Source of the DNA: Chromatiales bacterium
Lineage (GTDB): Bacteria > Pseudomonadota > Gammaproteobacteria > Chromatiales > Chromatiaceae
Direction of reading: 5' to 3'
Length of the DNA: 64,000 nt
Assembly: GCA_028280505.1 (NCBI GenBank)
Contig: JANQLO010000019.1
Coordinates: 1-64,000 of the forward strand
A model generated the notes under the pieces. The model saw only the letters and a program-made list of their open reading frames with translations. It was not told where the DNA came from and did not search any database. Below are positions 8,993 to 20,419 of this stretch, in pieces; positions within the stretch are counted from its first letter, which is position 1, and every line of letters starts with the position of its first letter. The position numbers and the translations under genes are program-made.

Positions 8993-11764
8993 TCACTGCT
9001 CGGCAATCAATCGTCGCAGCTCCGGCACACAGGACCCACAGTTGGTCCCGGCATTCAAGGCCTCGCCAATCGCCTCCGGCGTATCCAGGCCCTGCTCACG
9101 TATCGCCTTGTTCAGCGTATCGACACCCACGCTGAAACAGGAACAGACGATCTTGCCACCACCCTCTTGGCCTTTCGGTGGCGTACCACGCAGCAGGCCA
9201 TGGCGCTCTTGGTCCGTCAATTGCTCGCGCTGGAACAACTTCACCAACCAGTCGCGCGGCGGCAGATCGGACGTGGGACCGATGATGATCAGACTGTCGA
9301 GACGCCCGTCGACGATGCGTGCTGCGCGGTAGTTGCGTTGGGTGGAATCGTTAAACTCACGCCACTCCACATTGCCGTCGACTTCACCGAGTTGTACCCG
9401 CACGCTGTCGGCCCAGTTCTCGGGTGCAGCGTCGCCGGCCAGTTCGAAGTGCCAGAGACCGTCGCGACGAATCTTCGACCAATAACTCGCTTGATGCGGC
9501 ACCAAGCCATGTCGTGTCAGCAAAAAACCGTGCCACTGCGCGCGATAAGGCATCACCCGCACCGGGGTGTGTTTGAACTCCGGCTGACCCGAGGCCGGAT
9601 CGACCGCCGGGTTTACCAAGCTACCGATACGCGCCGCGGATGCGAATTGATCGTTCCAGTGAATCGGCGCGAACACCTGACCGACGGCTTGGGTATCGGT
9701 GAGCTGGACTCGCAGGGTCGCCTCGCCATGGGCACTGATCACGGTTGCGAGTTGACCGTCACGCAGGCCCACATCGGCGGCATCCTGCGGATGCAGGGCA
9801 ACGAAGGGCTCCGACGTGTGTGCCGACAAGCGTGGCGATTTGCCGGTGCGGGTCATGGTATGCCAGTGATCGCGTACCCGCCCGGTATTGAGCACCAGCG
9901 GATAAGCCTGATCGGGGTGATGCGCGGGCGGTCGCGGTGTAATCGCGATGAAGTTGGCCTTTCCATTGGCGGTAAAGAAACGACCGTCACTGAACAAACG
10001 CGCGGTACCCGGCGAACGGGTCTGTGGCAAGGGCCATTGTTGTGGTTTCAAGCGTGCATAACCCGGTTCGTCCAACGCGGACAGACCGGAGATATCGAAA
10101 TCACGTTCGTCGTCGTTCTCGAAACCGGACAGACAGGCGTGTTCGGCGAAGATCTCCGCCGGACCTTCGTAATCGAACCCCGGGTAGCCCATACGCTTGG
10201 CCACTTCGGTCAGGATCCACCAGTCGGGCCGACTATCGGCAGGCGGCTCCAGAAAGGCCCGCTGACGCGAAATGCACCGTTCGGAATTCGTCACGGTGCC
10301 ATCTTTCTCACCCCAACCGAGTGCCGGCAGGCGAATAGCGGCATGACTAAGGGTATCGGTCTCGGCGACGCAATCGGAAACGATCAAACATTCACATTTC
10401 GCCAGCGCGCGTCGGACCTGCTCGGTGTCCGGCAGGCTAACCGCCGGATTGGTCGCCATTACCCATAGCGCTTTCACCTCGCCGCACTCGACTGCACGAA
10501 ATAGATCGACCGCCTTCAGGCCGGGCCTTTGTGCCAGCGACGGTGCGCGCCAGAAGCGGGAAACCAGATCGCGGTGTGCCGGATTCTCGAGATCCATATG
10601 CGCGGCAAGTTGATTCGACAGGCCGCCGACCTCTCGCCCGCCCATGGCATTCGGCTGACCGGTAATCGAGAACGGCCCTGCACCGGGCTTACCGATCCGC
10701 CCGGTGAACAGATGACAATTGATGATGCTGTTGCCCTTGTCGGTACCGCTGCTCGATTGGTTGATGCCCTGGGAGAAGAGCGTCACCGTGCGTTCGGTCT
10801 CACCGAACCAGGTAAAGAAGCGCTCGACCGCTGCCGCATCCAGCCCGCACTGTGCGGCAACCGCATCGATCGACGGCGCATACCAGCGTGCCTGCGCCAA
10901 GGTCTCGTCGAGACCTTGGGTATGTCGTTCGACGAAAGCCTTGTCCCACAGACCCTGACTATCCAACCAGTTCAACAGGCCGCCGAACAACAGGGTATCG
11001 GTACCGCTTTTCAACGGCAGATGCAGATCGGCGATATCGCAGCTCGCGGTGCGCCGCGGATCGATGACCACAACGCGCAATGCCGGTCGTTGCTTTTTCG
11101 CCTGTACCAGGCGTTGATATAGCACCGGATGACACCAGGCGAGATTGGAACCGGTCAATACGACCAGATCCGTCTGTTCCAGGTCCTCGTAACAGTTCGG
11201 CACGCTATCGCTGCCGAAGGCGCGCTTGTAGGCCGCAACGGCCGACGACATGCACAAACGTGAGTTGGTGTCGATATTCGCCGAGCCGATGAAACCCTTC
11301 ATCAGCTTGTTGGCGACATAGTAATCCTCGGTCAGCAACTGGCCCGAGACATAAAAGGCCACGGCATCGGGACCGTGTTTATCGATCACGTTACGCAGGC
11401 GTTCGCTGACAGTATCCAAGGCGGTCGGCCAATCGACCTCACCACCATCGACCACCGGTTGTAGCAAGCGCCCGTCGAGCCCCAGGGTCTCACCCAGCGC
11501 GGCGCCTTTGGAACACAAACGGCCATGGTTCGCCGGGTGCTCATCATCGCCCCGCACACGAATACCGTCATGATCATCGCGTGAAACAACGAGACCACAC
11601 CCTACACCGCAATAGGGACAGGTGGTGCGAATGCCGGCCTCATCGCCGGCGAAGCGAGGGTTCGCCGTATCGGGATTCACTGCTGTTTCCCATCGACCGT
11701 CATGCGCAAGCGACACGCCGTGTTGGCGTAGATCCTCCTTTTGTGCGAGCCACCGTGTACCCAT
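8993..11764 (-). CDS. nasA: Assimilatory nitrate reductase, catalytic subunit
   Basis: A 923-residue cytoplasmic molybdenum bis-MGD enzyme that reduces nitrate to nitrite for assimilation. The N-terminal [4Fe-4S] motif CPYCGVGCGL sits near residue 48, followed by the molybdopterin oxidoreductase core (VSGQLLTEDYYVANKLMKG, GSNLAWCHPVLYQR, LFTGRIGKPGAGPFSITGQPN) and the MGD-binding C-terminal domain (LVLNTGRVRDHWHTMTRTG). A C-terminal BFD-like [2Fe-2S] domain with CSCF and NCGSC is fused at about residues 870-920, as in enterobacterial and Pseudomonas NasA. There is no separate NasB, so NirB or ferredoxin may supply electrons. It is the last gene of the nitrate operon. Confidence 0.95.
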   Translation of the reverse strand: MGTRWLAQKEDLRQHGVSLAHDGRWETAVNPDTANPRFAGDEAGIRTTCPYCGVGCGLVVSRDDHDGIRVRGDDEHPANHGRLCSKGAALGETLGLDGRLLQPVVDGGEVDWPTALDTVSERLRNVIDKHGPDAVAFYVSGQLLTEDYYVANKLMKGFIGSANIDTNSRLCMSSAVAAYKRAFGSDSVPNCYEDLEQTDLVVLTGSNLAWCHPVLYQRLVQAKKQRPALRVVVIDPRRTASCDIADLHLPLKSGTDTLLFGGLLNWLDSQGLWDKAFVERHTQGLDETLAQARWYAPSIDAVAAQCGLDAAAVERFFTWFGETERTVTLFSQGINQSSSGTDKGNSIINCHLFTGRIGKPGAGPFSITGQPNAMGGREVGGLSNQLAAHMDLENPAHRDLVSRFWRAPSLAQRPGLKAVDLFRAVECGEVKALWVMATNPAVSLPDTEQVRRALAKCECLIVSDCVAETDTLSHAAIRLPALGWGEKDGTVTNSERCISRQRAFLEPPADSRPDWWILTEVAKRMGYPGFDYEGPAEIFAEHACLSGFENDDERDFDISGLSALDEPGYARLKPQQWPLPQTRSPGTARLFSDGRFFTANGKANFIAITPRPPAHHPDQAYPLVLNTGRVRDHWHTMTRTGKSPRLSAHTSEPFVALHPQDAADVGLRDGQLATVISAHGEATLRVQLTDTQAVGQVFAPIHWNDQFASAARIGSLVNPAVDPASGQPEFKHTPVRVMPYRAQWHGFLLTRHGLVPHQASYWSKIRRDGLWHFELAGDAAPENWADSVRVQLGEVDGNVEWREFNDSTQRNYRAARIVDGRLDSLIIIGPTSDLPPRDWLVKLFQREQLTDQERHGLLRGTPPKGQEGGGKIVCSCFSVGVDTLNKAIREQGLDTPEAIGEALNAGTNCGSCVPELRRLIAEQ

Positions 11765-12188: not shown

Positions 12189-14627
12189 TCAGGCAATCTT
12201 CAATGTCTTAAACTCGTGCGACTGCTCGCCTTGCGCACGCGCCTTCCAGGGATCGATCTGCGCATAAGTCTGGCTATGTAGGAACCGTTCCTGCAGCGCC
12301 TTGCGATTAGCCTCGTCGTCGAGTATTTGCTGTTTGACATAGTTCAATCCGACACGCTCGACCCAAGGTGCGGTGCGCTCCAGATAGTGCGCCTCTTCAC
12401 GATAAAGCTGGATGAAGGCAGCACAGTATTCCAACACCTGTTCTTCGGTATCGACCTTGGTCAAGAGATCGGTGACCCGTACCTTGATGCCGCCGTTACC
12501 CCCGACGTGTAACTCATAGCCCGAATCGACACAGACCACACCGAAGTCCTTGATGGTCGCCTCGGCGCAATTGCGCGGACAACCCGAGACCGCCAATTTG
12601 AACTTGTGCGGCATCCATGAACCCCAGGTCATCTGCTCCAGCTTGACACCAAGCCCGGTGGAATCCTGGGTACCGAAACGGCACCAGTTTTTGCCGGCGC
12701 AGGTCTTCACCGTACGCAAGGCCTTGCCGTAGGCATGGCCGCTGACAAAACCGGCATCGGATAGATCCTTCCACACCGCCGGCAGGTCTTCTTTCTTGAC
12801 CCCGAACATATCGATGCGCTGACCGCCGGTGACCTTCATCTCCGGCACTTCGTACTTATCAGCGACATCGGCGATCGCACGCAACTCGTTGGAAGTGCAA
12901 AGCCCCCCGAACATCCGCGGCACGACCGAATAGGTACCGTCCTTCTGGATGTTGCCGTGCGCCCGCTCGTTGATAAAACGAGACTGCGCATCGTCCTGAT
13001 ACTCGTCCGGCCAATTGGCCAACAAATAATAATTCAGCGCCGGCCGGCAGGTTGCACAACCGTCCGGGGTCTTCCACTCGAGCGCCTCGCGCACCGCCTG
13101 CATGCTCTTGAGTTCGCCCTGTTTGATCGCGGCAATGACCTCATCGTGACTGTGTTCGGTGCAACCGCACATGCCCTTCTTGCTCGGCGCCTTGTCATAG
13201 CCCTCACCGACTGTGCTGGCGAGAATCGCCTCGACCAGGCCGGTGCAGGAACCGCAGGAACTCGACGCCTTGGTATGTGCACGTACATCTTCCAAGGTGA
13301 ACAAACCCTGCTTACCAATCGCATTGACGATGTCGCCCTTGCATACGCCGTTACAACCGCAGATCTCGGCGCTATCGGGTAGCGCCATCACGCTGGCCGA
13401 TGCATCGCCATGCCCGGCATCACCGAGATCGTGTTGCCCGAACAGAATGGTGCTGCGGAACGCCGAGATATCGGTACCTTCGCGCAACAGCGTGAAGTAC
13501 CAGGTGCCATCCAGGGTGTCGCCGTACAGCACGGCACCCTTGATCTTGTTGTCACGGATCACCAGCTTTTTGTAGACCCCCTGCGACGGGTCCTGCAGCA
13601 CCAGGGTCTCGTCGCCCTCGCCTTCGTTAAAGGCGCCGGCCGAGAACAAATCGATCCCGGTGACCTTGAGTTTGGTCGAGGTGACCGAACCCTCGTAACG
13701 CGCGATCCCCATCTGCGCAAGATGGTTCGCCGCGACCTTGGCCTGTTCGAACAAGGGCGCAACCAGACCGTAGCAATCGCCGCGATGTTGCACACACTCG
13801 CCGACCGCATAGACCTTCGGGTCGTAGGTCTGCATGGTGTCGTTGACCACGATGCCACGCTCGCAGTGCAGCCCGGCCGCTTGTGCCAAGGAGACATTCG
13901 GTCGGATACCGACTGCCATGACCACCAGATCGGCCGGAATCTCACTACCGTCGGCAAAACGCACACCGGTAACCTGCTCGTCACCCAGAATCGCCGCGGT
14001 CTGCGCTTCCATCAGGAACTTCAGCCCACGCTCTTCGAGCGAGGCCTTGAGCAAAGCCGATGCCGGCTTGTCGAGCTGACGTTCCATCAAGCTATCAAGC
14101 AAGTGCACAACGGTGACGTCCATGCCCTGCTTCATCAAACCGTTGGCCGCCTCCAGGCCAAGCAGACCACCACCGATCACTACCGCGGACTTCCCGTCGC
14201 GCGCGGCCTCGAGCATGGTGTCGACATCGGCGATGTCGCGAAAGCCGATCACGCCCTGCTTGTCGTGACCGGGCACCGGGATGATGAAGGGGTTCGATCC
14301 CGTGGTGATCAAGAGCCGGTCGTAATCGGCCTCGACACCGGCCGCGGTGACGACCTTGCGCTGTACCCGATCAATCGAGACCACCGGGTCACCCGTGATC
14401 AAACGAATGCCATTGTCTTCGTACCAATCACGCCCATTGAGCACGATATCGTCCAGCGTCTTTTCACCGGCCAAGACCGGCGACAGCATGATCCGGTTGT
14501 AATTCGGATGCGGCTCGGCCCCGAACACCGTGATCTCGTATTGCTCGGGTGTCAGCTTCAGCAACTCCTCCAGGGTACGCACGCCGGCCATACCGTTGCC
14601 GATCATCACGAGTCTTTCTTTCGTCAT
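12189..14627 (-). CDS. nirB: NADH-dependent nitrite reductase large subunit
   Basis: NirB, 812 residues, reduces nitrite to ammonium in the cytoplasm. The order of domains is normal: an FAD/NADH pyridine-nucleotide oxidoreductase half (VMIGNGMAGVRTLEELL at the N-terminus, AVVIGGGLLGLEAANGL near 150), a BFD-like [2Fe-2S] domain with CGCNGVCKGDI and SSCGSC near 420-455, a second Cys-rich element CGCTEHSHDE, and the C-terminal siroheme/[4Fe-4S] domain with CAGKNWCRFG and SGCPRNCAEA. All cluster-ligand cysteines are present. It follows the nasS-like gene by 10 bp and precedes nirD. Confidence 0.96.
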   Translation of the reverse strand: MTKERLVMIGNGMAGVRTLEELLKLTPEQYEITVFGAEPHPNYNRIMLSPVLAGEKTLDDIVLNGRDWYEDNGIRLITGDPVVSIDRVQRKVVTAAGVEADYDRLLITTGSNPFIIPVPGHDKQGVIGFRDIADVDTMLEAARDGKSAVVIGGGLLGLEAANGLMKQGMDVTVVHLLDSLMERQLDKPASALLKASLEERGLKFLMEAQTAAILGDEQVTGVRFADGSEIPADLVVMAVGIRPNVSLAQAAGLHCERGIVVNDTMQTYDPKVYAVGECVQHRGDCYGLVAPLFEQAKVAANHLAQMGIARYEGSVTSTKLKVTGIDLFSAGAFNEGEGDETLVLQDPSQGVYKKLVIRDNKIKGAVLYGDTLDGTWYFTLLREGTDISAFRSTILFGQHDLGDAGHGDASASVMALPDSAEICGCNGVCKGDIVNAIGKQGLFTLEDVRAHTKASSSCGSCTGLVEAILASTVGEGYDKAPSKKGMCGCTEHSHDEVIAAIKQGELKSMQAVREALEWKTPDGCATCRPALNYYLLANWPDEYQDDAQSRFINERAHGNIQKDGTYSVVPRMFGGLCTSNELRAIADVADKYEVPEMKVTGGQRIDMFGVKKEDLPAVWKDLSDAGFVSGHAYGKALRTVKTCAGKNWCRFGTQDSTGLGVKLEQMTWGSWMPHKFKLAVSGCPRNCAEATIKDFGVVCVDSGYELHVGGNGGIKVRVTDLLTKVDTEEQVLEYCAAFIQLYREEAHYLERTAPWVERVGLNYVKQQILDDEANRKALQERFLHSQTYAQIDPWKARAQGEQSHEFKTLKIA

Positions 14628-14637
14628 GTCGATACCT

Positions 14638-15972
14638 CTATTCGTTATTTGACACCACCGAATCGGTAACGGGCACCGGATTCAGCTCGGTCAGTTGTTC
14701 CATCGATGCGCTTGTGTTGGACACCGGGAATTCACGCAGATAGGCGATGGGGTCATTCGGATCAAACGCACCACCGTCGAAGAAACGGTCCGAGCCGAGC
14801 CGGATACCGTCCAGTGCCCAGGCATCCGCATGCATGCCCTCGGTTTTGTAATCGATCTCGGGGAGGCCCATGCCCAAGGCATCGGCGGCGGTACGCAACA
14901 GATCCGGACGATAAACCCGCTCGGCGATCGCGCGGATATCGACCGCACGATCCAGATGACCCCAACGCAACATCTGGGTAATGAACCAAACCGCATGTGA
15001 ACGCCACGGGAAGTTCGCCGCGAAGCGATGGAAGACATTGAAGTCCGGCAAGCTGCGCGCGAACTCGGTGCGTGCATACTGGAAGGTGCCCAGCATCGAC
15101 ACCCTTACGACATCACGCGGGGCGTTTACATAGCGCGGTTGCGCAATCAGTTCGACCACCTCGGCACGATGCTCCGGCAGATCGACCCAGGCAGCCGCTT
15201 CGAGCAACGCCATCATCAAGGCCTGATGGGTATTCGGATGCTGCAGCGCCCATTCTTCGCTGACACCCAGCACCTTTTCCGGACTGTTGTTCCAAAGCTC
15301 ATACTTGGTGATCAGTACGCGACCAAGGCCTTCGCGCACGGCAAGCTGGTTCCAAGGCTCACCGACGCAGAAACCGTCGATCTGACCGGCGCGCATCGCC
15401 GAGACCATCTGCGGCGGCGGCACGACGACCAGTTCGATATCGCGATCGGGATCGATACCGGCCGAGGCCATCCAATAACGCAGCTCATAGGTATGCGACG
15501 ACGTCGGAAAGACCACCGCAAAGGTCAGTGGCGGTCGGCCCGCCTGCCTTTCCTGATCGATTAAACGCTTGAGCGCATCCGCGGTTACCGGTGCATGCAT
15601 GGGCGCATCTGATTCGTGCATACCGAGGCGCCGGTACAGCGATTCGGATACCGTGATGGCATTGCCGTTCAGATCGAGTCCGAACGCCGTCAGCATGGGC
15701 TTTTCGATCGGCCCGATGCCCAAGGTGCTGGCGATCGGCATGGTTGCCAACATCTGTGCCGCGTCCAGAATGCCGACTGCGACCTTGTCGCGGATGTTCG
15801 CCCAGGAGGTTTCCTTGGACAGCGTGACATCCAGGCCATAACGATTGAAGAAACCCTTCTCGTGCGCGACCACCAAGGGCGCACAGTCGGTCAGCGGAAT
15901 AAAACCGATGTTGACCTCGGGCTTTTCCAACGAGGCCGGATCGAACGCGGGCGTATCGTTAGTGTTGTCCAT
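14638..15972 (-). CDS. NasS/NrtA-like cytoplasmic nitrate-binding protein
   Basis: A 444-residue protein homologous to the periplasmic nitrate-binding protein NrtA, with the matching series VNIGFIPLTDCAPLVVAHEKGFF, GLDLNGNAITVSE, SSHTYELRYWMASAGIDPDRD and [11 protein letters not shown], but without any signal peptide or lipobox. It should therefore stay in the cytoplasm. Two readings are possible: NasS, the nitrate sensor that sequesters the antiterminator NasT, or a detached version of the solute-binding domain that cyanobacterial NrtC carries. The NasT-like ANTAR gene just upstream of this operon favours NasS. The unusual point is its position inside the operon, 9 bp after nrtC, rather than beside nasT. 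Confidence 0.82.
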   Translation of the reverse strand: MDNTNDTPAFDPASLEKPEVNIGFIPLTDCAPLVVAHEKGFFNRYGLDVTLSKETSWANIRDKVAVGILDAAQMLATMPIASTLGIGPIEKPMLTAFGLDLNGNAITVSESLYRRLGMHESDAPMHAPVTADALKRLIDQERQAGRPPLTFAVVFPTSSHTYELRYWMASAGIDPDRDIELVVVPPPQMVSAMRAGQIDGFCVGEPWNQLAVREGLGRVLITKYELWNNSPEKVLGVSEEWALQHPNTHQALMMALLEAAAWVDLPEHRAEVVELIAQPRYVNAPRDVVRVSMLGTFQYARTEFARSLPDFNVFHRFAANFPWRSHAVWFITQMLRWGHLDRAVDIRAIAERVYRPDLLRTAADALGMGLPEIDYKTEGMHADAWALDGIRLGSDRFFDGGAFDPNDPIAYLREFPVSNTSASMEQLTELNPVPVTDSVVSNNE

Positions 15973-15981
15973 CCCGCTTCC

Positions 15982-16872
15982 TCAACCCGCCAGCCGCAAA
16001 CCGGCTTTCGGTTCGGCCGCGTCATCACTGTCAACCGATGCCTGGGCATCCGCCTTCGGCGCTTGCTGCTCGTCTTGTTTTTTACTGCCATGACCGACAT
16101 GACGCTCATGCAAAAAGCGCACGACCTCGGCGCGATAATGGTTGTACGCCGGGTCTTCGGCCAGGGCGAGACGATCGCGCGGACGTTCGAGATCGATATG
16201 CAGGATCTCGCCGATGGTCGCCGACGGCCCATTGGTCATCATGATGATGCGATCGGACAACAACACCGCCTCGTCGACATCGTGGGTGATCATGATCACG
16301 GTGTTCTTCAGCTCCGCCTGGATCTCCATCAGAGAATCCTGCATGTGGGTTCGCGTCAGCGAATCGAGTGCACCGAAAGGCTCGTCCATCAGCAACACCT
16401 TGGGCTCCATCGCCAATGCACGCGCGATTCCGACGCGTTGCTTCATGCCACCGGAGATCTCGTCCGGCTTGCGATCCAGTGCGTGGCTCATGTGTACCAG
16501 TTCGAGGTTGTGTCTCGTCCAGGCATCGCGCTCGGCCTTGCTCTTGGTGCGCTTGAACACCTGATCCACCGCCAGACGAACGTTGTCGTAGACGCTCAAC
16601 CAGGGCAGCAGCGAATGATTCTGGAAGACCACTGCGCGATCCGGACCGGGTTCGCGCACCTCTTTGTTCTCCAGCAACACACCGCCCTCGCTGGCCTGCA
16701 AGAGACCGGCGACGATGTTCAGCACTGTCGATTTACCACAGCCGGAGTGACCGATCAGCGAAATGAACTCGCTTTCGTCGACACGGAGGTCGACATCGTT
16801 CAAAACGTTCAACGGTCCCTTGTCGGTCGGAAAAGTAATGCAAACGTGATCGATATTGAGATAACTGTTCAT
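15982..16872 (-). CDS. nrtC: Nitrate ABC transporter ATP-binding protein
   Basis: A 296-residue ABC ATPase of the NrtC/NrtD/CmpD group. Walker A is GHSGCGKST near residue 41, the Q-loop lies in AVVFQNHSLLPWLS, the signature is ISGGMKQRVGIARALA (the usual LSGG reads ISGG), Walker B is VLLMDEPFGALD, and the switch histidine is in VIMITHDVDEA. It would drive import of nitrate through NrtB. Its C-terminal 30 residues are charged and variable. The solute-binding domain that extends cyanobacterial NrtC is absent and is instead encoded separately by the next gene. Confidence 0.92.
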   Translation of the reverse strand: MNSYLNIDHVCITFPTDKGPLNVLNDVDLRVDESEFISLIGHSGCGKSTVLNIVAGLLQASEGGVLLENKEVREPGPDRAVVFQNHSLLPWLSVYDNVRLAVDQVFKRTKSKAERDAWTRHNLELVHMSHALDRKPDEISGGMKQRVGIARALAMEPKVLLMDEPFGALDSLTRTHMQDSLMEIQAELKNTVIMITHDVDEAVLLSDRIIMMTNGPSATIGEILHIDLERPRDRLALAEDPAYNHYRAEVVRFLHERHVGHGSKKQDEQQAPKADAQASVDSDDAAEPKAGLRLAG

Positions 16873-16900: not shown

Positions 16901-17932
16901 TCAACGCAGCACCATGCTTTTGTCCCAACTCACCGCACGCTGCAGCATCAACATGCCGCGATCGAGCAGAAAGCCGATGAAACCGATCGCGATCACCGCG
17001 ACCATGATGCGTGCCAGCGAGTTCGAGCTGCCGTTCTGGAACTCGTCCCAAACGAACTTGCCCAGACCCGGGTTCTGCGCCAGCATCTCGGCGGCGATCA
17101 ACACCATCCAGCCGATACCCAGCGACAAACGCATGCCGGTGAACATCATGGGCAGCGACGACGGCAGGATGATCTTTACGGTCTTGGTCAACCAGCTCAG
17201 ACGCAGTACGCGACTGACGTTGAGCAGGTCCTTGTTCACACCGGACACGCCCACCGCGGTATTGATGATCGTCGGCCACAGACAACACAGCGTCACGGTG
17301 ATGGCCGAGTTCAGGAAAGACTTCGAGAACCAGGGGTCGTCGCTGACATAGACCGCCGACACCACCATGGTCACCAAGGGCAACCAGGCCAAGGGCGAGA
17401 CCGGTTTGAATAACTGGATAATAGGATTGAAGGCCTGATAGAGTGTCTGGCTCATGCCGATCATGATGCCCAGCGGGATAGCGATCATTGTCGCGATCAC
17501 GAAACCCGTCATGACCGTCAACAGACTGGTGATGATTTGATCGAAGAAGGTCGCCGTACCGGTGTAACGGCGCGCCTGCATTTTCTCGATCCGCTCGGCG
17601 GGTTTACCCGCCTCGATGGCCTTATCGATTCGTACCTGCATACGGTCGTAGAAGGCCGCTTCGCGTTCACGTTCGGCCTTGTGTTCGTCATACAAGGCGA
17701 GGCTCTGTTCCCAAACGCGATCCGGACCCGGCAGTTCGCCCAACGAGGTCTGCACTTGCTGTGCGCCGACTTTCCACAACATTAGAAAAACGAGAATGGC
17801 CGCCATCGGTACCAGGACGTTACGCGCCAGATTACCGGTCAGCGCCAGCAGGCGGTCGCCCGAAAGATAATTCAACACGGCATCCAACGTGGATGATTCA
17901 AAGGTCTTTTGATTTCGCAACGTACTGATCAT
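16901..17932 (-). CDS. nrtB: Nitrate ABC transporter permease
   Basis: A 343-residue inner-membrane permease of the NrtB/SsuC type. The BPD-transporter domain occupies the C-terminal two thirds, with the EAA-like loop around NVSRVLRLSWLTKTVKIILPSSLPMMFTGMRLSLGIGWMVL. A first transmembrane segment (VLVPMAAILVFLMLW) is followed by a charged stretch of about 60 residues rich in Glu, Arg and Lys, an extra soluble loop between the first two membrane segments that is typical of the proteobacterial nitrate permeases. It lies between nrtA and nrtC. Confidence 0.92.
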   Translation of the reverse strand: MISTLRNQKTFESSTLDAVLNYLSGDRLLALTGNLARNVLVPMAAILVFLMLWKVGAQQVQTSLGELPGPDRVWEQSLALYDEHKAEREREAAFYDRMQVRIDKAIEAGKPAERIEKMQARRYTGTATFFDQIITSLLTVMTGFVIATMIAIPLGIMIGMSQTLYQAFNPIIQLFKPVSPLAWLPLVTMVVSAVYVSDDPWFSKSFLNSAITVTLCCLWPTIINTAVGVSGVNKDLLNVSRVLRLSWLTKTVKIILPSSLPMMFTGMRLSLGIGWMVLIAAEMLAQNPGLGKFVWDEFQNGSSNSLARIMVAVIAIGFIGFLLDRGMLMLQRAVSWDKSMVLR

Positions 17933-17999: not shown

Positions 18000-19400
18000 T
18001 CAGATCACCTCTTCGCCTTTCAAACCAATCGGGAAGGCCTTGAGATAGTCGTTCGGCTTACGACCGTCGAAGGTCACCTCATCGATAAACTCGGTCTGCG
18101 GCGAGCGGTAGCCGGTCTCGGTATCGAAGTTCGGGAACTCATCCGCGCTCAACACACCCTCGGCGATCAATGCCTCGGCGGCCTTGCGATAGATGTCCGG
18201 GCGATATACCGACTTGGCGACTTCGTCATACCAGCTGTCCGACTTGGGCTCGGCGATCTGGCCCCAACGACGCATCTGGGTCAGATACCAGACGGCATCG
18301 GAGTAGTAGGGATAGGTCGCGTTGTAGCGGAAGAAAACATTGAAGTCGGGGATCTCGCGCTTGTCGCCCTTTTCGAATTCGAAGGTACCGGTCATGGAGT
18401 TGGCGATGACGTCATAGTCGGCACCGACATAGTTCGGTTGCGACAGAATCTTCACCGCCTCCGGGCGATTGGCATTGTCGTTTTCGTCCAGCCACTTGGC
18501 TGCGCGCAGCATGGCCTTGACGATGCGCACCGTAGTGTTCGGATACTTCTCGGTGAACTCTTTGGTCATACCGAACACCTTTTCCGGATTGTTCTTCCAG
18601 ATCTGGTAGTCGGTGATCACCGGTACACCGATACCCTTGAACACCGCCTGTTGGTTCCACGGCTCACCGACGCAGTAGCCATAGATGGTGCCGGCCTCGA
18701 GCGTTGCCGGCATCTGTGGCGGCGGCGTTACCGACAACAGTGCATCGGCCTCCAAGGTGCCGGTGATGTCGCCTTTGTGTGGTGCGTAATAGCCGGGATG
18801 AATACCGCCGGCCGCGAGCCAATAACGCAGCTCGTAGTTATGGGTCGATACGGGGAAAACCATGCCCATCTTGAACGGCCGACCTTCGGCTTTGAATGCT
18901 TCAACGACAGGTTTGAGATAGTCGGCCTTGATCGGATGCTGCGGACGACCGTCGTCCATCTTCGGCACATGCGGCTTCATCTTGTTCCAAACTTCGTTCG
19001 AAACCGTGATGCCGTTGCCGTTAAGATCCATCGAAAAAGGCGTCACGATGTGCGCCTTGGTACCGAAACCAATGGTGGCGGCAAGCGGTTGACCGGCGAG
19101 CATGTGTGCCCCATCGAGCTGACCATCGATCACGCCGTCCAACAGTACTTTCCAATTGGCTTGCGCCTCCAAGGTGACATACAGGCCTTCGTCTTCGAAG
19201 TAACCCTTTTCGTAGGCGATCGCCAAGGGCGCCATGTCGGTCAACTTGATGAAGCCGAACTTGAGATCTTCTTTTTCCGGCTCACCGATCTCGGCGACGG
19301 CCGACGATGTGAATCCGGCGAATCCCAAAGCCAGGCCAACGGCAAGGATGCTGCGTTTCAGAAAACGGCGACGCGTTATCCGGTCGTTCGATTCAGTCAT
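18000..19400 (-). CDS. nrtA: Nitrate ABC transporter substrate-binding protein, Tat-exported
   Basis: NrtA, 466 residues, binds nitrate in the periplasm for import by NrtBC. The N-terminus carries a twin-arginine signal ([23 protein letters not shown]). Family landmarks are [56 protein letters not shown] and [14 protein letters not shown], with the C-terminal [13 protein letters not shown] block. The ATG at 19398-19400 has a GAGG box just upstream; a GTG 15 codons earlier lies in the terminator U-tract region and is unlikely. It is the first gene of the operon and is preceded by a leader that looks antiterminated. Confidence 0.94.
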
Positions 19401-19443: not shown

Positions 19444-19492
19444 AAAAAAAGGCGTACCGTCGCGTACGCATAGCCGTACGAGACAGGACGCC
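19444..19492 (-). terminator. Leader terminator in front of nrtA
   Basis: Read on the minus strand, a 42-nt hairpin (19451-19492) opens with GGCGU and closes with ACGCC, contains a CGUACG/CGUACG inner stem around the loop GCUAUG, and is followed at once by seven U residues (19444-19450). A shorter alternative stem GCGUAC-gcgacg-GUACGC (19452-19469) uses the same 3' arm. It sits 44 nt ahead of the nrtA start and far downstream of the promoter, so it is an attenuator and not the end of nasT. Confidence 0.8.
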
Positions 19493-19502
19493 ATTGTCGG
19501 GT

Positions 19503-19573
19503 TCAGCCATCTTTGGCTGATGCGATCCGGGTTGCCTGGTCCTCCCGCCGTTGGGCTTACCGTGCAGGGCAAC
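19503..19573 (-). promoter_or_regulatory. Tandem hexaloop hairpins, ANTAR (NasT) RNA target
   Basis: Two hairpins lie in the leader just before the terminator. The second (19503-19520) is a perfect 6-bp stem UCAGCC/GGCUGA closed by the hexaloop AAAGAU. The first (19531-19573) has an outer GUUGCC/GGCAAC stem and an apical CCC/GGG stem closed by the hexaloop AACGGC. Both loops have A at position 1 and G at position 4, the known ANTAR recognition pattern. The first hairpin is weaker because of its internal loops. Confidence 0.68.
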
Positions 19574-19596
19574 ACGCATCGATTTGCTTGGATCAG

Positions 19597-19612
19597 AGCA
19601 ATAGCCGTGCCA
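19597..19612 (-). promoter_or_regulatory. Sigma-54 promoter of the nitrate operon
   Basis: On the minus strand the sequence reads TGGCAC-ggcta-TTGCT, an exact fit to the -24/-12 consensus TGGCAC-N5-TTGCW. Transcription would begin near 19587, giving a leader of about 190 nt that contains both hexaloop hairpins and the terminator. This places nrtABC-nasS-nirBD-nasA under RpoN. Confidence 0.82.
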
Positions 19613-19757
19613 CAAGACGGCTCGATGTCATGTCGACTGCTACGCGTTGTCGGCTAAGCCCTTGAGTTTCAGCGTTTTCCAATGCGCTCGATACGTCGCA
19701 GACCGTTACCGAGCCGGCGACTTGTCAACGGATAAAACGTCATTGATGTCGGGAAAT

Positions 19758-19774
19758 CGCACCAGCGAAGTGCA
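19758..19774. promoter_or_regulatory. NtrC-like binding site
   Basis: GCAC-N7-GTGC (19759-19773) matches the core of the NtrC site (TGCAC-N7-GTGCA type). It lies about 160 bp upstream of the sigma-54 promoter, a normal enhancer distance. A second element, GTGC-N4-GCAC, follows at 19792-19803. Together with the promoter this implies nitrogen-limitation control. Confidence 0.55.
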
Positions 19775-19816
19775 AATCACGGCTCAAGTTCGTGCAGATG
19801 CACAAGCAAAGGTGGG

Positions 19817-20419
19817 TCAGATCAACAGGCTCGCGGCAGACACAATGCTCTCGGCAACGTCTATCAAACGCTTGTTGCTGCTCATCGCCAAACTGCGCAT
19901 TGCCTTATAGGCCTCGTCTTCGGTCATGCCGCGTTGCTTCATCAATATGCCTTTGGCCTTGTCGACCACCTTGCGCTCTTCGAGTTGGGCGCGGGTCTTT
20001 TCCAGTTCTTGGGTCAGACTGCGGAACTGTTGAAAACGCTCGATGGCGGCATCCAGGATCGGACGCACCCGCTTGGTACTGATACCGTCGACCACATAGG
20101 CGCTCACGCCGGCACGGGTTGCGCGCGCGATGGTCGAGCCGTCGTCGTCCTGGGTGAACATCACGATCGGGCGCGGCGCGGCCGATTGCACCGATTGCAG
20201 ACTCTCGAGGGTATCGCGCCCCGGCGAATCCAGATCGATGATGACGACATCGGGATTGTCTTGTTGCACGCGACCCAGCAGATCCTCGGCGCTGGATGCG
20301 AAACCGACGAGTTCGCAACCGACTTCCGCCAGGGATTCCTTCAACGACGCACGACGCTGTGTGCTGTCATCGACCAGCAACACCCGCAACCGCTTTTTCT
20401 GTGCGCCCACTTCCGACAT
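19817..20419 (-). CDS. nasT: NasT-type ANTAR antiterminator
   Basis: A 200-residue response regulator with an N-terminal receiver-like domain and a C-terminal ANTAR RNA-binding domain. VLLVDDSTQRR supplies the acidic pair, and VVIIDLDSPGRDTLE contains the aspartate that is the phospho-acceptor position in canonical receivers. The ANTAR part at about residues 140-200 shows a coiled linker (QELEKTRAQLEERKVVDKAKGILM) and the QRGMTEDEAYKAMRSLAMS core. By analogy to NasT it would bind hexaloop hairpins and stop termination when released from NasS. It lies directly upstream of the nitrate operon leader. The ATG at 20417-20419 begins the receiver fold. Confidence 0.9.
   Translation of the reverse strand: MSEVGAQKKRLRVLLVDDSTQRRASLKESLAEVGCELVGFASSAEDLLGRVQQDNPDVVIIDLDSPGRDTLESLQSVQSAAPRPIVMFTQDDDGSTIARATRAGVSAYVVDGISTKRVRPILDAAIERFQQFRSLTQELEKTRAQLEERKVVDKAKGILMKQRGMTEDEAYKAMRSLAMSSNKRLIDVAESIVSAASLLI

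Follow-up and report, generated by a model that had tools for sequence, protein, structure and literature searches.

A probable two-gate nitrate assimilation leader with three hexaloop hairpins, under NtrC/sigma-54 and NasT, in a Chromatiaceae genome

Leaders controlled by ANTAR proteins are reported to switch because their second hairpin, P2, shares sequence with an intrinsic terminator (PMC3369931). The targets described from eut (Enterococcus), nasF (Klebsiella) and amiE (Pseudomonas) have two A1/G4 hexaloops, short linkers and mutual exclusion of P2 and terminator (PMC3369931; PMC3369936); in eut the linker measures 5–12 nt, and lengthening it to 14 nt cut induction (PMC3369931). How an ANTAR dimer engages the two loops is disputed, with binding to both at once put forward in one report (PMC3369936) and binding to one after the other in another, where the authors of an EutV structure propose that a single dimer binds P1 and P2 successively and that the linker is spatially constrained (PMC8934654). 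In the nitrate-responsive branch, the NasS-NasT complex is reported to come apart in the presence of nitrate, with NasT binding to the nasA leader (PMC3795266). In P. denitrificans, where nasT and nasS are cotranscribed, mutation of two hairpins of the nasA leader indicated that they are needed for NasT control, and NtrC acts at nasT (PMC5424462). In Pseudomonas, the nalA leader, which belongs to the nirBD operon, has been reviewed as standing under both NtrC/sigma-54 and NasT (PMC12830290).

The window analyzed here, a stretch of 64,000 nucleotides from a Chromatiales bacterium of the family Chromatiaceae (contig JANQLO010000019.1), contains a leader of this known kind, that is, NasT/ANTAR antitermination under NtrC/sigma-54 as in nalA/P11 of Pseudomonas. 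All elements lie on the minus strand, in the order nasT, NtrC-type palindrome, sigma-54 promoter, three-hexaloop leader, terminator and nrtA, followed by nrtB, nrtC, a nasS-like gene, nirB and a nasA-like gene. The nasT product (19817–20419, 200 aa) has the receiver plus ANTAR architecture of the NasT partner in NasS-NasT systems (Pfam PF00072 and PF03861, E 9.6e-22), and the gene ends at 19817, immediately upstream of the leader, as a preliminary description of this DNA had noted. The first gene of the operon, nrtA (18000–19400), encodes a TAT-type nitrate-binding protein (Pfam NMT1_2; TAT motif recognized by eye). It is followed by the nrtB permease gene (16901–17932; TIGR01183, E 8.6e-48, under its curated cut-off), the nrtC/D ATPase gene (15982–16872; TIGR01184, above cut-off), a gene for a putative NasS-like cytoplasmic nitrate sensor (14638–15972; NMT1_2 and comparison with a NasS of L035), nirB for the nitrite reductase large subunit (12189–14627; TIGR02374, above cut-off) and an open reading frame named by reading, in a conserved operon order, as a nasA-like assimilatory nitrate reductase (8993–11764). 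The layout of these elements is real and beyond chance, and we interpret it, with a probability of about 0.88, as a nitrate assimilation leader with two gates, in which initiation by NtrC/sigma-54 is followed by NasT/ANTAR antitermination. The double control by nitrogen limitation and nitrate proposed in the preliminary description thus survives as the best reading, given that NtrC and RpoN are encoded, NasT is adjacent and the elements recur in relatives, but the ANTAR hairpins had been mis-assigned.

The first gate is represented by TGGCAC-N5-TTGCT at 19612–19597, minus strand, the sole exact match to the promoter pattern in the window (0.08 expected by chance), which agrees with the exact TGGCAC-N5-TTGCW promoter reported before. 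It is unchanged in all four leaders of a same-genus alignment that comprises the window's leader and those of three other species of the genus. The palindrome GCAC-N7-GTGC likewise exists, at 19773–19759, but it is not significant on its own because two are expected per window, and it is the comparison that carries the case. In 4/4 same-genus leaders, GC[AT]C-N7-GTGC precedes the promoter by 149–171 nt, and the exact palindrome precedes 31 of the 129 leaders of the wider set described below, compared with 28 of 2580 shuffles. Although two matches per window would allow a chance palindrome, with the operon driven by another sigma-54 activator or by readthrough from nasT, the conserved place and spacing and the enrichment make this quite improbable. 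The genome carries genes for both NtrC (741 bits) and RpoN (513 bits), each over cut-off, so that a -24/-12 element, an upstream palindrome and both proteins occur together, as expected of an NtrC-dependent sigma-54 promoter. Under nitrogen limitation, phosphorylated NtrC would bind the palindrome near 19766 and activate sigma-54 polymerase at the promoter, with a predicted transcription start near 19586.

Folding, which had been suggested as a check, bears out a structured leader (-73 kcal/mol; z -2.3 relative to shuffles) with three hexaloop hairpins. P1 (CCC-AACGGC-GGG, 19544–19555) carries its loop at 19552–19547, and the CCC/GGG stem that directly closes it has only 3 bp, atop a longer, interrupted outer stem (about 19580–19523). 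The middle hairpin (UCAGCC-AAAGAU-GGCUGA, 19503–19520), either a spacer or a third hexaloop, has its loop at 19514–19509 on a 6-bp stem with a closing-pair probability of 0.999. P2 (GAC-AAUGGC-GUC, 19487–19498) presents an A1/G4 hexaloop at 19495–19490 on a 3-bp GAC/GUC stem and lies over the 5′ arm of the terminator, with which it has positions 19492–19487 in common. The intrinsic terminator with seven U is present as described before (19451–19492; arms 19492–19475 and 19468–19451; T7 at 19450–19444). The leader thus combines at least two hairpins of at least 3 bp that bear A1/G4 hexaloops with a P2 overlapping the terminator 5′ arm, as dual-hexaloop ANTAR targets do. The linker from the middle hairpin to P2 is 4 nt and that from P1 to P2 is 45 nt with the hairpin inside. 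GACAAxGGCGTC, considered as a separate conserved element, was rejected because this sequence is P2 itself.

Which two hairpins form the dual motif is judged here from the genus comparison. The preliminary description had paired AACGGC with AAAGAU; both A1/G4 hexaloops exist, but the pairing was wrong and the third hexaloop was missed, as it is P2 with AAUGGC that overlaps the terminator and neither of the other two loops does. The promoter, the P1 core CCCAACGGCGGG and the P2 sequence GACAAYGGCGTCCT are kept in 4/4 same-genus leaders, save L115, whose GACAAYGGCGTCCT region ends in ...GTCCTA, and the AACGGC and AAYGGC hairpins are both kept in all four. The middle hairpin is also predicted in all four, with an A1/G4 hexaloop in just two: its loops read AAAGAU, AAAGUA and GCUGAC, and in L115 the loop is not a hexaloop, so that the A1/G4 character is not conserved in L006 and L115. 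The conserved pair is therefore AACGGC (P1) and AAYGGC (P2). The hexaloop pattern in relatives had been named beforehand as a test that could refute the layout; AACGGC with AAAGAU fails it and is rejected as the dual motif, while AACGGC with AAYGGC passes. A dual NasT site made up of AACGGC and AAAGAU, with terminator control that involves no overlapping P2, is accordingly very improbable: the AAAGAU stem is the stronger one, but its A1/G4 loop is kept in 2/4 leaders compared with 4/4 for the AAYGGC loop over the terminator, and such a pair would leave the terminator untouched. Somewhat less improbable, but still unlikely, is an arrangement in which the middle hairpin serves as P1, 4 nt from P2, with AACGGC as an accessory upstream site. 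Its spacing to P2 fits many compact dual leaders (P1–P2 loop distance about 19–22), but AACGGC is invariant in the genus and the middle loop is degenerate in two relatives.

With AACGGC as P1 and AAUGGC as P2, the second gate would work as follows. Sequence and comparison show an RNA that forms P1 and the middle hairpin. Without nitrate, NasS would hold NasT, the terminator at 19492–19451 would form and transcription would stop past the U tract. With nitrate, freed NasT would take P1, then P2, and hold P2; because the held P2 shares 19492–19487 with the terminator 5′ arm, the terminator would be blocked and nrtABC-nasS-nirB-nasA transcribed. Each folded by itself, P2 reaches -1.8 kcal/mol and the terminator -22.2 kcal/mol, and a weak P2 beside a strong terminator is what a protein-dependent switch needs. 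The middle hairpin would bring P1 and P2, 45 nt apart, closer together, and its loop, which follows the A1/G4 rule here, may be an extra NasT site. Speaking against the two-gate interpretation are the 3-bp stems of P1 and P2, with closing-pair probabilities of 0.22 for P2 and 0.61 for P1 when the terminator 3′ arm is left out of the folding, the 45-nt gap, which far exceeds the 5–12 nt of eut, and the 28 of 129 leaders that lack an upstream A1/G4 hexaloop when stems of at least 4 bp are demanded.

The wider set was drawn from NasT neighborhoods, nrtA neighborhoods and matches to a promoter-to-P2 pattern in the class (30 of 369 genomes positive), order (14 of 210) and phylum (42 of 398), the draws partly overlapping; matches to the backwards-read control pattern counted in the same tables numbered 4, 0 and 2, respectively. 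A promoter, a P2 and an overlapping terminator were required, and 129 of 130 candidates were retained after identical sequences were dropped; a few of them may be chance matches (e.g., L107). P2 was required to be A1/G4, and its loops are thus not evidence, whereas upstream hairpins were not used in the selection. Upstream of P2, A1/G4 loops occur in 119 of the 144 hexaloop hairpins. At least one upstream A1/G4 hexaloop is present in 101/129 leaders, compared with 45/2580 dinucleotide shuffles, and two are present in 18/129, compared with 0/2580. A rule of three hexaloops for all leaders was rejected, as a single upstream A1/G4 hexaloop is seen in 83 of the 129 and none in 28 when stems of at least 4 bp are demanded, a rule under which the window itself scores only one because the direct stem of P1 has 3 bp. 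We also examined the flanks of AA[ACT]GGC loops (86 places in 79 leaders) without demanding stems. The first five flanking positions pair at frequencies of 0.98, 0.97, 0.90, 0.85 and 0.79, compared with means of 0.93, 0.70, 0.44, 0.47 and 0.41 when flanks are exchanged between leaders; for the third pair, 0.90 stands against a reshuffled mean of 0.44 and maximum of 0.59, with 47 different left arms. This pairing is covariation on which the choice of loops did not depend, and loop and stem are conserved in relatives with compensatory changes, as expected of ANTAR targets.

Leaders with two upstream A1/G4 hexaloops (18) come from the window's family, Candidatus Thiodiazotropha (L033), Paramagnetospirillum (L085), Xanthomonas (L106) and the families f108, f160 and f191; seven of them belong to f160, so that relatives in this count are not independent. 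In the Xanthomonas leader, each of the three hairpins carries AACGGC as its hexaloop. Whether the middle hairpin of the window is a structural spacer only, its A1/G4 loop being due to chance, is about evenly balanced, and this would refine the two-gate interpretation rather than exclude it. The middle loop is not conserved in the two relatives named above, and long P1–P2 gaps are generally folded: at a threshold of -5 kcal/mol or better, a folded interval was present in 17/17 leaders with a gap of at least 61 nt (median z -2.2) and in 18/20 with a gap of 46–60 nt, and several of the long gaps have loops other than A1/G4. On the other hand, 18 of the 34 hexaloop hairpins found besides the strongest A1/G4 one are themselves A1/G4 (16 are not). 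Three f160 leaders that match Rfam P11 have A1/G4 hexaloops at two upstream places in addition to P2, and thus the Pseudomonas-type leader itself carries a third loop. In our view the data point to two uses that overlap: the hairpin reduces the length of a long linker, and in part of the lineages it additionally serves, or has come to serve, as another NasT loop. For the window's middle hairpin, a spacer is the more cautious assignment.

A bolder and distinctly tentative proposal is that there is a recurrent sub-class of NasT leaders in which one A1/G4 hexaloop lies within the terminator and two more lie outside it. The outer loops might load a NasT dimer early and hand it over loop by loop to P2, in the terminated leader they would still make up a complete NasT-binding RNA and a possible decoy, and with nasS in the operon the circuit could limit itself through its RNA as well as through its protein. 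On our reading, what is new here is this three-hexaloop (or spacer-hairpin) sub-class together with the placement of the putative nasS inside a NasT-controlled operon. ANTAR leaders are described as dual hexaloops, and three-loop or hairpin-bridged natural leaders would separate the models of binding order. In a limited literature search, a third hexaloop was not seen described for any antiterminator leader, a weak absence; an additional single hexaloop is mentioned for EutX RNA (PMC8934654).

An Rfam scan of the window leader returned nothing over threshold, and no dedicated ANTAR model matched. The best two sub-threshold matches, on the minus strand, were narK RNA (RF03032; 19.9 vs. a gathering threshold of 43.2 bits) and P11 (RF00625; 16.8 vs. 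70 bits), the latter of which we take to be the same RNA as nalA. Leaders L225, L209 and L219 match P11 above threshold, and L158, an ordinary NasT-type leader, matches narK RNA above threshold. Both consensus sequences start with a -24/-12 sigma-54 promoter, that is, DNA upstream of the transcript, and the narK RNA model ends in a P2-type hairpin. The comparison suggests that the P11 and narK RNA entries describe a single kind of NasT-type leader, with promoter DNA built into both models. The window leader shares with nalA the NtrC/sigma-54 promoter, hexaloop hairpins, P2–terminator overlap and NasT, but it is far under the P11 threshold, has other loop sequences and precedes a different operon. 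Similarly, it has the A1/G4 hexaloops and P2/terminator exclusion of eut, nasF and amiE, whereas their two loops are joined by short linkers and here the interval between P1 and P2 holds a further hexaloop hairpin.

The product of 14638–15972 is NrtA-like without a visible signal peptide and is 54% identical to a NasS of L035, whose gene comes right behind nasT. In a tree of 54 of 87 position-sorted proteins (the first 28 plus the first 26) and two window proteins, it is sister to the L035 NasS (support 0.926), its deeper placement being weak; the 87 comprise 53 sorted by position as NasS and 34 as Nrt, and 18 of 105 full-length proteins fitted neither rule and were left out. Besides nrtA, the window's genome holds only much weaker relatives of this gene. 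The genome relatives, the identity to the L035 protein and the tree lead us to prefer NasS over a detached NrtC C-terminal domain. Among ten regions from other genomes, a nasS-like gene follows nrtC in five (L249, L250, L253, L256, and L257) and was not found in three (L251, L252, and L255); two pieces (L254 and L258) are too short to tell. In the window and in these five regions, the nasS-like gene lies within an operon presumably under NasT control, unlike the cotranscribed nasT-nasS pair of P. denitrificans. If the window's gene is NasS, NasT activity would raise the level of its own inhibitor, a predicted negative feedback that differs from the cotranscribed arrangement.

The window's genome (G000) encodes two ANTAR genes, of which nasT is one. 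The second, a response regulator on contig 47 (L002, 1384–3134), adjoins a PAS/HWE-type histidine kinase. A looser pattern search of this genome for other NasT leaders gave one place, coding-like by eye, and none is claimed; the pattern also missed the known leader, and the search is thus not exhaustive. In a second genome of the genus (G007), another NasT-type leader with A1/G4 hexaloops (L181, minus strand, about 1500–1597) lies directly 5′ of an open reading frame that reads like a nirB-type reductase.
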